From Thermopolyspora flexuosa (GTDB taxonomy: Bacteria > Actinomycetota > Actinomycetes > Streptosporangiales > Streptosporangiaceae): a stretch of 64,000 bases of DNA. Positions within the stretch are counted from its first letter, which is position 1. Each line of letters begins with the position of its first letter. Of the stretch, positions 45,624 to 49,568 are shown piece by piece. The stretch lies in NCBI RefSeq assembly GCF_006716785.1, contig NZ_VFPQ01000001.1:1550001-1614000 (forward strand), in the 5' to 3' direction. A model generated the notes under the pieces. That model did no database searches. It was given only the letters and a program-made list of their open reading frames with translations, and was not told the DNA's origin. The translations under genes and the position numbers were made by a program.

Positions 45624-46358
45624 TCAGGCCGGTACGGCGAGCCGCTCGGTGGCGAGGGCGTGGTCGTAGCGCTCGAGCACCACCTCGGCGAGCTCCGGCG
45701 CGGCCCCGAGCACGCCGCCCACCGCCGCGGCCCCGGCCGCGAGCGTCTCGCGGCGCACCCGGTCGGCGAAGTACCCGGGCGCGAGCAGGTACGGCGCGAC
45801 CACCACGCGCGGCGCCCCGGCCGCAAGCAGCCGGGCCACCTCCGCGCCGGGGGCGGGCGCGGCGGCCGACGCGTACGCGGGCGCCACCGCCCACCAGCCG
45901 CGCTCCCGCGCCCAGCGCCGCGCGATCCGGGCGATCACCTCGTTCGCCCGGCGGTCGCTCGACCCGGCCGCGACGAGCACCACCGCGGTGGCCGCCGTCT
46001 CCTCCGGGTCGCCGACGGCCACCCCCGCCTCGGCGAGCCGCCGCTCGAGCGCCCGCACCAGCAGCGGGTGCGGCCCGAGCGTCGCGCCGTACCGGATCCG
46101 GGTGCCGCGCACCTCGCGCAGCACCCGGGGGATGTCCACCCGGCTGTGGTAGGCGGCGGTGAGCAGCAGCGGGAGCACCACCGCCTCGGGCAGCCCGGAC
46201 AGCACCCGGGCCGGCGTGGGCGGGGCGTGGTCGAGGTAGGACTCCCGCACCGGCAGGCCGGGGCGGGCGCGCCGTACCGCGTCGAGAAGGGCGCGCACGG
46301 TGGCGGCGGCGCGCGGGTCGCGGGAGCCGTGCGCGACGGCGATCAGCGGGACGGTCAC
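45624..46358 (-). CDS. sirohydrochlorin chelatase (CbiX/SirB-type)
   Basis: A 244-residue double-domain chelatase that inserts metal into sirohydrochlorin; here most likely Fe2+ to make the sirohaem of the sulfite reductase in the same operon. The N-terminal half begins VPLIAVAHGSRDPRAA with the catalytic His, then VLPLLLTAAYHSRVDIP with the second His; the C-terminal half repeats the fold (VLVAAGSSDRRAN, VVVAPYLLAPGYFADRV). GTG 46358 overlaps the cysH stop by four bases, so it is coupled as the last gene of the sulfate operon. Confidence 0.9.
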   Translation of the reverse strand: MTVPLIAVAHGSRDPRAAATVRALLDAVRRARPGLPVRESYLDHAPPTPARVLSGLPEAVVLPLLLTAAYHSRVDIPRVLREVRGTRIRYGATLGPHPLLVRALERRLAEAGVAVGDPEETAATAVVLVAAGSSDRRANEVIARIARRWARERGWWAVAPAYASAAAPAPGAEVARLLAAGAPRVVVAPYLLAPGYFADRVRRETLAAGAAAVGGVLGAAPELAEVVLERYDHALATERLAVPA

Positions 46359-47083
46359 GTGTGGATACCGCACTCGATCTTGCCGAGCCCGGCCCACCGG
46401 CCGCTGCGCGGGTCCTCGCCCTCGGCGACCCGGCGGGTGCACGGCGCGCAGCCGATCGAGGGGTAGCCGTCGAAGTGCAGCGGGTTGACCAGCACCCCGT
46501 TGTCGGCGATGTAGTTGTCGACGTCCTCCTGGGTCCACTTGGCGATCGGGTTCACCTTCACCATCTGGCGCTTGGCGTCCCACTCGACCACCTTCACGTT
46601 CGCCCGGGTGGGCGCCTCGTCGCGGCGGATGCCGGAGATCCACGCCAGGTACGGCTCGAGCGCCCGGTTGAGCGGCTCCACCTTGCGCAGGTAGCAGCAC
46701 AGGTCCGGGTTGCGCCCGTACAGCCGGGGCCCGAGGTCGCGCTCCTGCTCCTCGACGGTACGGCTCGGCAGCACGTCGATCACGTTGACGTTGTAGACCT
46801 GGCGGACCGCGTCCCGGGTGCCGATGGTCTCGGCGAAGTGGTAGCCGGTGTCGATGAACAGCACGTCACACCCCGGCTTGACCCGGCTGACCAGGTCGAT
46901 GAGGAGCGCGTCGCTCATCGACGAGGTGAGGCACAGGCGGTCGCCGAAGGTCGCCGCCGCCCAGCGGATGATCTCGAGGGCGGGCGCGTCCTCGAGGTAG
47001 GCGGCGGCGGACTCGGCGATGTGCCGCAGGTCGAACGCGGCACGGTTGGCGCGCAGGTCCGCCTCGATGTCCACCAGGGTCAT
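46355..47083 (-). CDS. cysH: adenylyl-sulfate (APS) reductase
   Basis: Reduces APS to sulfite, 242 residues. The PP-loop-like substrate site is LCLTSSMSDALLIDL, followed by DVLFIDTGYHFAET. Both Cys pairs for the [4Fe-4S] cluster (DLCCYLRK and IGCAPCTRR) mark it as an APS rather than PAPS reductase. The C-terminal ECGIHT supplies the catalytic Cys that forms the thiosulfonate intermediate. ATG 47083 has GAGGAG nine bases upstream. It precedes the chelatase (GTGA overlap) and follows the zinc-ribbon gene by 193 bases. Confidence 0.95.
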   Translation of the reverse strand: MTLVDIEADLRANRAAFDLRHIAESAAAYLEDAPALEIIRWAAATFGDRLCLTSSMSDALLIDLVSRVKPGCDVLFIDTGYHFAETIGTRDAVRQVYNVNVIDVLPSRTVEEQERDLGPRLYGRNPDLCCYLRKVEPLNRALEPYLAWISGIRRDEAPTRANVKVVEWDAKRQMVKVNPIAKWTQEDVDNYIADNGVLVNPLHFDGYPSIGCAPCTRRVAEGEDPRSGRWAGLGKIECGIHT

Positions 47084-47276: not shown

Positions 47277-47420
47277 TCACGACCGGACCCCGATGCCGAG
47301 GAACTTGAGCCGGAACGCCCGGGCGCAGCAGCGGCAGTACCAACCGCCGTCGCCCTCGTACGGCTCCAGGTCCTCCTCGCCGCAGTACGGGCAGTGGAAC
47401 GGGACGGCGCGCTCGCTCAT
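47277..47420 (-). CDS. small zinc-ribbon protein of the sulfite reductase operon
   Basis: A 47-residue protein with two Cys pairs, CPYCGEEDLEPY and WYCRCCARAF, which should bind one zinc. The start overlaps the sulfite reductase stop (ATGA at 47417-47420). I recall similar tiny proteins next to nirA/cysH in other actinobacteria. The role is unknown; it may deliver or sense something for the reductase. The short length, double CxxC-like pattern and strict coupling make it a real gene. Confidence 0.88.
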   Translation of the reverse strand: MSERAVPFHCPYCGEEDLEPYEGDGGWYCRCCARAFRLKFLGIGVRS

Positions 47421-49099
47421 CGCAGATCGGCCTCGTCGGCGCGCTGGACCCACTCGGCGAACGTCTCGCCCTCGGCGCGCTGCTTCTCGTAGTTGCGCAC
47501 CACGCGTTCGACGTAGTCGGGCAACGCCTTCGCCGTGGTCTTCAGGCCGCGCACCTTGCGGCCGAACCCGGAGTTGACGCCGAGCGAGCCGCCCAGGTGG
47601 ATCTGGAAGCCCTCGACCTGGCGTCCGTCCTCGTCGACGACGAGCTGGCCCTTGAGGCCGATGTCCGCGGTCTGGATGCGGGCGCAGGAGTTCGGGCAGC
47701 CGTTGACGTTGATGGTGAGCGGCTCGGCGAAGCCGGGCAGCCGCCGCTCCAGCTCGTCGATGAGCCGGCTCGCGGTGGCCTTGGTCTCGACGATCGCGAG
47801 CTTGCAGTACTCGATGCCGGTGCAGGCCATCGTCTGGCGGCGGAAGGTGCTCGGGTGCACCGGCAGGTCGGCGGCCTCCAGGTCGGCGACGATGTCGTCC
47901 ACCTTGTCCGGGGCGATGTCGAGGATGACCATCTTCTGCTCGGTGGTGGTGTGCACCCGGCGCGAGCCGTACCGCTCGGCGATGTCCGCGATCCGGTCGA
48001 GCCTGTCGGCGTCGAGCCGGCCGACCTTCGGGGCGAAGCCGACGTAGAAGTTGCCGTCCTTCTGCCGGTGCACGCCGACGTGGTCGCGGCGGCCGCCGCG
48101 CGGCGGCGCGGGCGCCGGGCCCTCGGGCAGCGCGTAGCCGAGGTACTCGCGCTCCAGCACCTCGCGGAACCGCTCGACGCCCCAGTCGTTGACGAGGAAC
48201 TTCAGCCGGGCGCGGTGGCGCAGCCGCCGGTAGCCGTAGTCGCGGAAGATGCCCGCGACGCCCGCCCAGACCTCGTGCACCCGCTCCGGCGCGACGAACA
48301 CGCCGAGGCGCTTGGCGAGCATCGGGTTGGTGGACAGGCCGCCGCCCACCCACAGGTCGTAGCCGCGCTCGCCGTCCTCGTTCACCACGCCGACGAACGC
48401 CACGTCGTTGATCTCGTGCACGGTGCAGTGCGCGGGGCAGCCGCTCACCGCGCTCTTGAACTTGCGCGGCAGGTTGGAGAACGCCTTGTCGCCGATGTAG
48501 CGGGAGCGGATGTCGGCGATCTGCGGCGAGGCGTCGATCACCTCGTCGGCGTCGATGCCGGCGAGCGGGCAGCCGATGATGACGCGCGGCGTGTCGCCGC
48601 AGGCCTCGGTGGTGTCGAGGCCGACCCGCTCCAGCGCCTCCCAGATCGCGGGCACCGACTCGATCTCCACCCAGTGGAGCTGGATGTTCTGCCGGTCGGT
48701 GATGTCGGCGGTGCCGCGGGCGTACCGGCGGGAGACGTCGGCGATGGTGCGGAGCTGGTCGACGGTGAGCCGGCCGCCGTCGATGCGGATGCGGAGCATG
48801 AAGTAGCGGTCGTCGAGCTCCTCCGGCTCGAGCACCGCGGTCTTGCCGCCGTCGATGCCGGGCCGCCGCTGGGTGTACAGGCCGTACCAGCGGAACCGGC
48901 CGCGCAGGTCGGCGGGGTCGATCGAGTCGAAGCCCCGCTTGGCGTAGATGTCGATGATGCGCTGCCGGACGTTGAGCCCGTCGTCGTTCTTCTTCAGCTC
49001 CTCGTTCTTGTTCAGCGGCTCTCGGTAGCCGAGCGCCCACTGACCCTCGCCGCGCGGGCGCTTGTGGTGGCGGCTTGCGGACCTAACCGGGGTTGTCAT
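47417..49099 (-). CDS. ferredoxin-dependent assimilatory sulfite/nitrite reductase
   Basis: Six-electron reductase for sulfite to sulfide (560 residues), probably SirA/NirA type, with ferredoxin as donor. Two pseudo-repeated halves: FMLRIRIDGGRLTVDQL, GTADITDRQNIQLHWV, IGCPLAGIDADEV and SGCPAHCTVHEIND in the first; NFYVGFAPKVGRL, VHTTTEQKMVILD, then the sirohaem/[4Fe-4S] ligands TMACTGIEYCKLAI and NVNGCPNSCARIQTADIG. The neighbours (cysH, chelatase) favour sulfite over nitrite. ATG 49099 has GGAGAAGGA five bases upstream. A short leader peptide frame lies 145 bases upstream and may control it. Confidence 0.94.
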   Translation of the reverse strand: MTTPVRSASRHHKRPRGEGQWALGYREPLNKNEELKKNDDGLNVRQRIIDIYAKRGFDSIDPADLRGRFRWYGLYTQRRPGIDGGKTAVLEPEELDDRYFMLRIRIDGGRLTVDQLRTIADVSRRYARGTADITDRQNIQLHWVEIESVPAIWEALERVGLDTTEACGDTPRVIIGCPLAGIDADEVIDASPQIADIRSRYIGDKAFSNLPRKFKSAVSGCPAHCTVHEINDVAFVGVVNEDGERGYDLWVGGGLSTNPMLAKRLGVFVAPERVHEVWAGVAGIFRDYGYRRLRHRARLKFLVNDWGVERFREVLEREYLGYALPEGPAPAPPRGGRRDHVGVHRQKDGNFYVGFAPKVGRLDADRLDRIADIAERYGSRRVHTTTEQKMVILDIAPDKVDDIVADLEAADLPVHPSTFRRQTMACTGIEYCKLAIVETKATASRLIDELERRLPGFAEPLTINVNGCPNSCARIQTADIGLKGQLVVDEDGRQVEGFQIHLGGSLGVNSGFGRKVRGLKTTAKALPDYVERVVRNYEKQRAEGETFAEWVQRADEADLR

Positions 49100-49243
49100 A
49101 GCGCGTCCTTCTCCGGGGGTAATGTCCGGTTTATCTGGCGCGCGGCTCGGCCGGTCCTCCCGGCTCACCGTTGAGGCCCGGGCGGGATGTGGGCATGAAG
49201 AAAGACGCCTGCCACGCGCCCAGAAATCGAAGATGGGCGACCG

Positions 49244-49327
49244 TCAGCGGGCGTCGATACAGATGGCGCTGCGGACACGCAGGAAGTCGACGTGACGGCG
49301 CACGACGAGAAGCGGGTCCACGGGCAT
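49244..49327 (-). CDS. sulfur-operon leader peptide (27 residues)
   Basis: ATG 49327 opens a 27-residue frame reading MPVDPLLVVRRHVDFLRV then RSAICIDAR and a stop. The RxHVDxxRVxSAIC core is the hallmark of short actinobacterial leader peptides that precede sulfur-assimilation genes. The single Cys near the end would let ribosome behaviour at that codon report Cys-tRNA supply, and so cysteine, to the downstream sulfite reductase operon. It ends 145 bases before the reductase start. It is too short for routine gene calling. Mechanism (attenuation or translational control) is inferred. Confidence 0.8.
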   Translation of the reverse strand: MPVDPLLVVRRHVDFLRVRSAICIDAR

Positions 49328-49568
49328 GTCTCGACGATACCGTGCGGTCCGCGGATCTCCAACGACGGGTCCACACTCTGGACACCCCGGCGTCAACCGC
49401 TCGGCCGTGACGCCTGGTACGTCACGGTGTATAGGGGGCGGTCGATGCCATCCGTTGCATAGAAGGTAAATAGGAAAGGCGACAAGGAAGCATGACGAAG
49501 GCGGGCGACGCTGAGGCTCCAGGGGGAAATCCCGTGGTCGTGCGCTACCCGGCGTCCGCTATCGTCTA

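Follow-up and report, generated by a model that had tools for sequence, protein, structure and literature searches.

A conserved leader peptide with an invariant UGU codon as a putative cysteine-sensing attenuator of the sulfite reductase operon of Thermopolyspora flexuosa

We analysed a 64,000-nucleotide stretch of the Thermopolyspora flexuosa genome (contig NZ_VFPQ01000001.1, positions 1,550,001 to 1,614,000; hereafter the window, with positions counted from its first letter), in which a short open reading frame (ORF) for a leader peptide precedes the sulfite reductase operon sirA-47aa-cysH-cbiX. Comparison with related genomes suggests that this leader is part of a ribosome-mediated transcription attenuator of the operon, with one UGU codon as its cysteine sensor, a reading to which we assign a probability of roughly 0.65. 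The invariant UGU and a terminator-like stem that starts 3 nt after it would supply a concrete mechanism for an idea put forward in a sequence-only reading of the window, which had proposed that a 27-residue frame with one Cys codon ties the operon to cysteine supply and sulfur status. The direction of that proposal is borne out in that actinobacteria have a sulfur-linked class of leaders to which this one is similar. The single Cys codon is a weak argument by itself; it is the invariance of the codon, the conservation of the peptide and the covariation of the stem that lend support, and that reading had named none of them. The promoter before the leader also went unmentioned there. The features of the leader region are as follows.

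49357..49362, minus strand: -35-like hexamer TTGGAG (TTGGACA in most relatives)
49334..49339, minus strand: -10-like hexamer TATCGT, 17 nt after the -35-like hexamer and 6 nt before the ATG
49244..49327, minus strand: leader ORF of 27 codons, MPVDPLLVVRRHVDFLRVRSAICIDAR followed by a stop codon (ATG at 49327-49325, stop at 49246-49244)
49259..49261, minus strand: putative sensor codon TGT (Cys23), TGT in nearly all related leaders
49106..49114, minus strand: Shine-Dalgarno (SD) region of sirA, GGAGAAGGA

Conservation of the leader, its promoter and its UGU codon

Using the first 182 residues of SirA as a query, we found sirA in 53 of 60 genomes, including that of T. flexuosa (G and L numbers below denote genomes and loci). 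Upstream DNA was readable in 51 of these; G012 and G056 had none and were dropped before leaders were counted. A short frame bearing the motif was present upstream of sirA in 45 of the 51, one of which (G048) was a false positive by inspection, leaving 44 of 51. As controls, the antisense strands of these regions gave 1 match in 51 with the same scan, and shuffled versions an average of 0.1 in 51. The leader was found in all 36 readable genomes of the window's genus and family, T. flexuosa counted, and the scan detected none upstream of sirA in G038-G042 and G053 among the 51. Judged by these comparisons, the leader is real and goes beyond chance. The frame lies on the minus strand in front of the operon, as had been proposed, and its only Cys is residue 23 (codon TGT, 49261-49259), near the end; some orthologues have a second or third Cys. 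The gap between the leader stop and the sirA ATG (49099-49097), previously given as 145 bases, measures 144 nt.

Leu, Arg, His, Asp and Arg occupy five leader positions in 44 of 44 leaders with varied codons, which points to selection on the translated peptide. Codon choice at V3, V12, R13 and S14 is narrower than predicted from sirA usage, so some constraint at the RNA level is likely too. The leader matches the NCBIfam model NF042934, 'putative leader peptide' (cis_reg_atten), over the full profile (1-19) with an E value of 9.3e-06, at 25.1 bits and hence short of the cut-off of 27, whereas the sirA leader of G004 exceeds that cut-off with 33.9 bits. The model of a Cys-rich leader, NF042936 (Ms4527A), gave 23.1 bits against a cut-off of 45. 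At E values up to 0.001, 144 of 197 genomes of the class yielded members of the NF042934-type family and none of 14 control genomes did; at E values up to 10, the profile matched in 10 of the 14 control genomes, always below the cut-off.

The arrangement TTGGAG-17-TATCGT-6-ATG leaves no room for a 5' untranslated region and would put the 5' end of the transcript at the start codon. All 33 leaders tested carry a TGGACA-like motif 35-37 nt upstream of an in-frame start, compared with 61 of 1650 random positions, and no SD-like motif was detected before the start of any of these 33. This test covered 33 of the 44 leaders, taking the best start of each and leaving out G036 and ten further genomes (G020, G025, G030, G043, G046, G049, G051, G052, G057 and G058). 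In-frame GTG and TTG codons are further possible starts of the window's leader, and the ATG is favoured because the promoter fits it. A generic sigma-70 scan found no promoter at the leader. This spacing suggests a leaderless transcript; such initiation is common in the phylum, making up 17% of primary transcription start sites in Streptomyces lividans according to PMC8079986.

The last Cys of the motif is encoded by TGT wherever a sirA leader has Cys at that place (43 of 43). The same codon stands there in 118 of 119 frames among the matches listed from the collection genomes (found by a pattern with the third base free) and in 7 of 7 leader-like frames of the T. flexuosa genome. It is also TGT in 90 of 90 of the best listed leaders found by an amino-acid profile (66 genomes, 21 families), which comprise the 30 best-scoring matches (30 of 30) and 60 of the next 61 listed (60 of 60; G080:C33 was omitted). 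These sets overlap in part. As a background, TGT makes up 12 of the 291 Cys codons of sirA genes and 14 of the 158 found in a selection of 32 window genes. The same 90 leaders provide an internal control, as Cys at positions -7 and -2 is encoded by TGC in 89 of 99 cases and by TGT in 10 (TGC in 53 of 54 in the 60 leaders and 36 of 45 in the 30), which differs from the invariant position with a Fisher p of 5e-43, uncorrected for relatedness. Five of the ten exceptions occur at -2 within six polycysteine tracts, where -2 is TGT in 5 of 5; the remaining positions of the tracts have mixed codons or too few to judge.

The letters flanking TGT vary on both sides, which makes a long base-paired partner unlikely as the reason for UGU. 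Both Cys codons are presumably read by one tRNA-Cys, UGU through a G-U wobble, in which case selective tRNA charging cannot explain the invariance and wobble-pair decoding becomes directly testable in vivo. The simplest reason is a property of decoding UGU. The retention of one synonym in 90 of 90 leaders, against a preference for the other elsewhere, strongly indicates that regulatory information lies in the codon and not in the amino acid alone, a rule likely to surprise specialists.

The stem that follows the UGU codon

Downstream of UGU, the window can form an outer stem (P1) around an inner one (P2), ahead of a U-rich tail. The arms are listed below.

49250..49255, minus strand: P1 5' arm GACGCC, in the final codons of the leader, beginning 3 nt past TGT
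49234..49239, minus strand: P2 5' arm CGCCCA, from folding
49217..49222, minus strand: P2 3' arm TGGGCG, from folding
49204..49209, minus strand: P1 3' arm GGCGTC, from covariation and folding
49197..49203, minus strand: U-rich tail TTTCTTC after P1

The 62-nt fold of the window has an energy of -27.3 kcal/mol (z -2.8), matched by 2 of 200 shuffles. In relatives, P1 appears with both arms altered as AACGTCGGC/GCCGACGTT, CACGACGCC/GGCGTCGTG, GCCCCG/CGGGGC, GCGCCG/CGGCGC and AACGCC/GGCGTT. When 55 leaders were aligned without regard to structure, 90.9% of 318 cells at the six P1 pairs were paired, compared with 53.1% for the best slid control, and 18 cells were altered on both sides; shuffles gave 5.8, and none of 500 reached 18. 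P1 was chosen by hand after inspection of the sequences, and this covariation test reuses part of those data. Two further tests are independent of the alignment of 55 but share sequences with it. Cognate P1 arms paired better than arms swapped between genomes in an alignment-free comparison of 61 genomes (0 of 5000 permutations), and did so again in the 43 genomes outside what we label the Nocardiopsis type (0 of 5000). The best outer stem after UGU had a mean probability of 0.82, compared with 0.25 when the downstream DNA was shuffled (better in 48 of 55), and the 9 nt after it contained 3.4 T's compared with 1.6 in shuffles (better in 42 of 55); these scores used 10 shuffles each, and the best stem differs from P1 in several rows. 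Genome by genome the signal was weak, with no more than 5 of 100 shuffles as good in 14 of 43 leaders. The 61-genome set left out the ten genomes named above, loci without sirA and near-duplicates (more than 0.88 alike), and the alignment (A1) left out six more loci (L115, L116, L135, L154 from Streptomyces, L176 and L186).

In Actinomadura, the P1 arm TGACGCC takes in the leader stop codon (TGT CGG TGACGCC), so the place after TGT is kept despite the changed codons. The taxonomy of Actinomadura was checked and places it in the order Streptosporangiales, to which the other genera named for P1 presumably also belong. All Rfam families stayed below threshold at the leader. A Streptomyces-metK match at 49111-49168 (21.1 bits against a threshold of 44.2) was set aside as chance.

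The attenuation model and its alternatives

The elements seen by sequence comparison, namely the leader, the promoter spacing, the invariant UGU, the conserved residues with mostly free codons and the covarying stem, whose position relative to UGU is constant, suggest a sequence of translation, stalling, occlusion and termination that would respond to cysteine. The promoter would yield a transcript that starts at the leader AUG. With plentiful Cys-tRNA, the ribosome would pass UGU, finish at UGA and depart; GACGCC would then pair with GGCGUC 46 nt on, around the inner hairpin, and together with the U-rich tail would cause termination before sirA. With scarce Cys-tRNA, the ribosome would stall with UGU in the A site and its leading edge would cover the P1 5' arm, which would block the stem and allow RNA polymerase to read into sirA-47aa-cysH-cbiX. 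A ribosome stalled with a codon in the A site reaches about 9-12 nt past the first base of that codon. The P1 5' arm of the window lies at UGU+6 to +11, a match from which we infer that the stalled ribosome would cover the arm. The peptide RRHVDFLRVRSAI, which would be in the upper part of the exit tunnel at the stall, may sharpen it, much as known arrest peptides assist stalling from the tunnel. As in known transcription attenuators, the leader ORF holds a codon for the end product (UGU, at a fixed place) and is overlapped by a putative terminator stem, for which sequence, folding and covariation speak, although a pattern scan names another hairpin. At the level of sequence it also has a feature of arrest peptides, in that certain residues of the nascent chain are conserved and lie at a constant distance from the putative stall codon. 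If correct, the model would suggest a mechanism for leaders so far labelled just 'putative leader peptide', and the element might serve as a cysteine reporter in industrial actinomycetes.

Several results weigh against this model. Three P1 pairs with changes on both sides and eight further pair types are ordinary values (reached in 168 and 226 of 500 shuffles, respectively). RNAalifold on a plain MAFFT alignment did not find P1 and returned four other pairs at -0.93 kcal/mol, and a terminator scan reported a smaller hairpin at 49221-49203, ahead of nearly the same tail, that could compete with P1 and P2. In the single-genome test of the window, 18 of 100 shuffles were as good. The swapped-arm test reached 114 of 5000 within the 12 Nocardiopsis-type genomes, and its control segments gave 4342, 294 and 42 of 5000; the last of these is the leader segment UGU-39 to -28, so relatedness adds to the swapped-arm result. 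U-tracts are weak in the Actinomadura and Nocardiopsis types. Four Streptomyces sirA leaders keep UGU and show no support for P1 in the swapped-arm test (460 of 500). A canonical TAnnnT -10 motif (at -12 or -13) was found in only 14 of 44 leaders. The codon rule itself meets a commoner TGT background when all long frames of the leader loci are counted, spurious ones included (149 of 707 and 2017 of 8949 Cys codons), as well as two exceptions. L176, in a metagenome-assembled Actinophytocola, is the sole TGC among the 119 listed leaders, and the sirA leader of G036 (L043) has CCC in place of TGT (..RSAIPGTGR), which means either that the sensor codon was lost naturally or that the assembly, 74% complete, is poor. 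From the weak U-tracts of two lineages, the lack of support for the stem in four Streptomyces leaders and the Cys loss in G036, we conclude that the model is limited to part of the Streptosporangiales.

Three members of the window's family (G020, G025 and G030) also keep UGU without support for P1, which counts against the model in the same way; 41, 67 and 24 of 100 shuffles, respectively, matched their best stems in single-genome tests. Their leaders (L064, L065 and L063, respectively) end in ..CTGCTGA, which matches GCAGCA just before the sirA SD. As this partner is not that of P1, the readout may differ there, and it is possible, judging from these letters, that a hidden SD takes the place of the terminator.

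That match bears on an alternative for the window itself, in which the ribosome-binding site of sirA is hidden by the leader RNA until a stalled ribosome exposes it, as in the polycysteine leaders of mycobacteria; PMC9031893 and PMC13236596 report SD-release control for cysteine leaders of Mycobacterium smegmatis. Pairing is possible between the sirA SD region and the stretch of leader that precedes UGU, and it was stronger for cognate than for swapped partners (0 of 5000 across 43 genomes and 1 of 5000 within 35). Kin share both sides of this pairing, however, and full folds skip it, so we keep it as a rival only. Sequestration by thermodynamic folding was not supported, as ensemble folds of 43 leaders left the SD no freer with a ribosome on UGU (mean unpaired 0.32) than without one (0.36). 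The window leader, moreover, has a single Cys, and the covarying stem of its type, with its U-rich tail, lies well upstream of the SD. We consider translational control of this kind unlikely.

Two further accounts retain the leader and change what acts on the transcript or what is sensed. Ribosome release might expose the untranslated 144-nt gap to Rho, with a stalled ribosome shielding it and the hairpin merely pausing polymerase. Rho was proposed for terminator-less mycobacterial cys leaders (Seliverstov 2005; PMC1262725), and the weak U-tracts of some lineages would suit it, but it leaves unexplained the compensatory changes in P1 and the U-rich tail in the window and its close kin, and we judge it distinctly improbable. 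Alternatively, the sensor could be the conserved peptide itself, which inside the ribosome tunnel would bind free cysteine or a different sulfur metabolite and arrest at UGU, leaving Cys-tRNA charging secondary. The residues kept at a fixed distance from UGU and the similar motif in leaders of other sulfur genes are in keeping with such a sensor; metabolite arrest alone, however, offers no reason for UGU over UGC, and the RNA-level constraint suggested by the narrow codon choice at V3, V12, R13 and S14 may explain part of the conservation, which makes this account quite unlikely.

Attenuation at UGU could also be one form of something wider, a sulfur sensor shared among actinobacteria, which we offer as a tentative reading with the odds somewhat against it. 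A nascent peptide of the R-x-[HA]-V-D-x-x-R type would hold the ribosome, and the single wobble-read UGU, nine codons after the Asp, would be the decision point, other leader Cys codons being mostly UGC and passed. The readouts would be exchangeable: most Streptosporangiales sirA leaders would use a terminator stem, G020, G025, G030 and mycobacteria would use pairing beside the SD, and Streptomyces something else. If this is true, UGU and UGC would be two words with different regulatory meaning, although one tRNA presumably reads both.

Related leaders, the operon and neighbouring loci

The leader is a known kind of element, in that it resembles NF042934 leaders; what is new is the UGU codon rule and the stem after UGU. 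It shares with NF042934 a 19-position motif over the full length, and differs in that it scores below the cut-off and in that the name and description of the model state no mechanism, codon or structure. Canestrari 2020 is said to describe polycysteine leaderless short ORFs of M. smegmatis before sulfur genes. Like these, the window leader is a short ORF before sulfur genes with Cys near its end, and it weakly matches the Ms4527A model; unlike them, it has a single Cys codon and no Cys tract, and a terminator-like stem seems to stand in for their hidden SD. Our literature searches, judged by titles and the opening lines of abstracts, turned up no work on UGU as an unchanging codon of these leaders or on a terminator that follows them; Canestrari 2020 may treat codons.

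Related logic is known from other leaders. As reported in PMC8632094, uORFC-8-2 of the Rhodobacterales, which precedes cysS, is a cysteine upstream ORF (uORF) followed by an intrinsic terminator, with UGC dominant. The order of Cys codons and terminator and the stalling and readthrough logic are the same as proposed here, but that element is alphaproteobacterial, has tandem Cys codons, favours UGC and precedes cysS, whereas the window leader has one Cys, an invariant UGU, a conserved peptide and sirA behind it. Seliverstov 2005 (PMC1262725) predicts classical trp-type attenuators in Corynebacterium and Streptomyces and, for Mycobacterium and P. acnes, cysteine leaders that lack obvious terminators; Shell 2015 describes cysteine-rich leaderless uORFs (PMC4633059). 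Trp-type attenuators also combine a leader peptide with a terminator, but the leader studied here has neither a run of sensor codons nor an identified antiterminator, and the ribosome itself would cover the terminator arm.

The four downstream genes that had been proposed as an operon are all present on the minus strand, as follows.

47417..49099, minus strand: sirA, assimilatory sulfite reductase-like (NIR_SIR); closest solved structure 1zj8, E 7.6e-206
47277..47420, minus strand: ORF of 47 amino acids with CxxC pairs, overlapping the sirA stop, between sirA and cysH
46355..47083, minus strand: cysH, (phospho)adenylylsulfate reductase
45624..46358, minus strand: CbiX-family chelatase-like gene; NCBIfam chelatase models below their cut-offs

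The deposition name of 1zj8 is ferredoxin-dependent nitrite reductase NirA, a protein that we take to act as a sulfite reductase. For SirA itself, all NCBIfam models scored under their own cut-offs, and the 47-residue CxxC ORF had no Pfam or NCBIfam match. A terminator-like hairpin on the plus strand (CCGGGGG..CCGG with TTTATC, 49113-49129) overlaps the SD region of sirA and may be chance.

Leaders of this type also occur before other genes. We identified the next gene by codon bias at 20 selected from 30 loci of other leaders, and found DUF4395 proteins at eight, rhodaneses at five, sulfite reductases at three, luciferase-like monooxygenases at three and a sulfatase at one, all of which are sulfur genes or plausible partners of sulfur genes. 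The T. flexuosa genome contains about six more leader-like frames besides the sirA leader; the seven frames counted there were chosen by eye among 14 matches at E values up to 10, the other seven lying inside long frames, and two of those chosen score poorly (E 0.02 and 0.4). They precede a dicarboxylate-type symporter, a rhodanese (behind a further frame), a GST-like gene, a frame without Pfam match, a 2-oxoacid:acceptor oxidoreductase and an SfnB-like oxidoreductase. Those before the GST-like gene and the Pfam-less frame (L003 and L004, C1:911285-913291) lie 2 kb apart on opposite strands. The frame before the 2-oxoacid:acceptor oxidoreductase, at a distance of about 0.4 kb (L006, C1:4675068-4675124, MLFARRHVDFGRLAATLCRPLILRA, with TGT), is a weak match (E 0.018); if it is real, that gene may be under cysteine control. 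In G158, the leader end GCCATCTGTCGGTG of L233 recurs within 37 nt after the leader stop and is perhaps a duplicated leader end. Elsewhere in the window, the only Rfam match at its gathering threshold is a ZMP/ZTP riboswitch (RF01750, 49565-49669, plus strand; 39.4 bits against 39), which lies just upstream of a divergently transcribed ORF that by eye is serine hydroxymethyltransferase-like.

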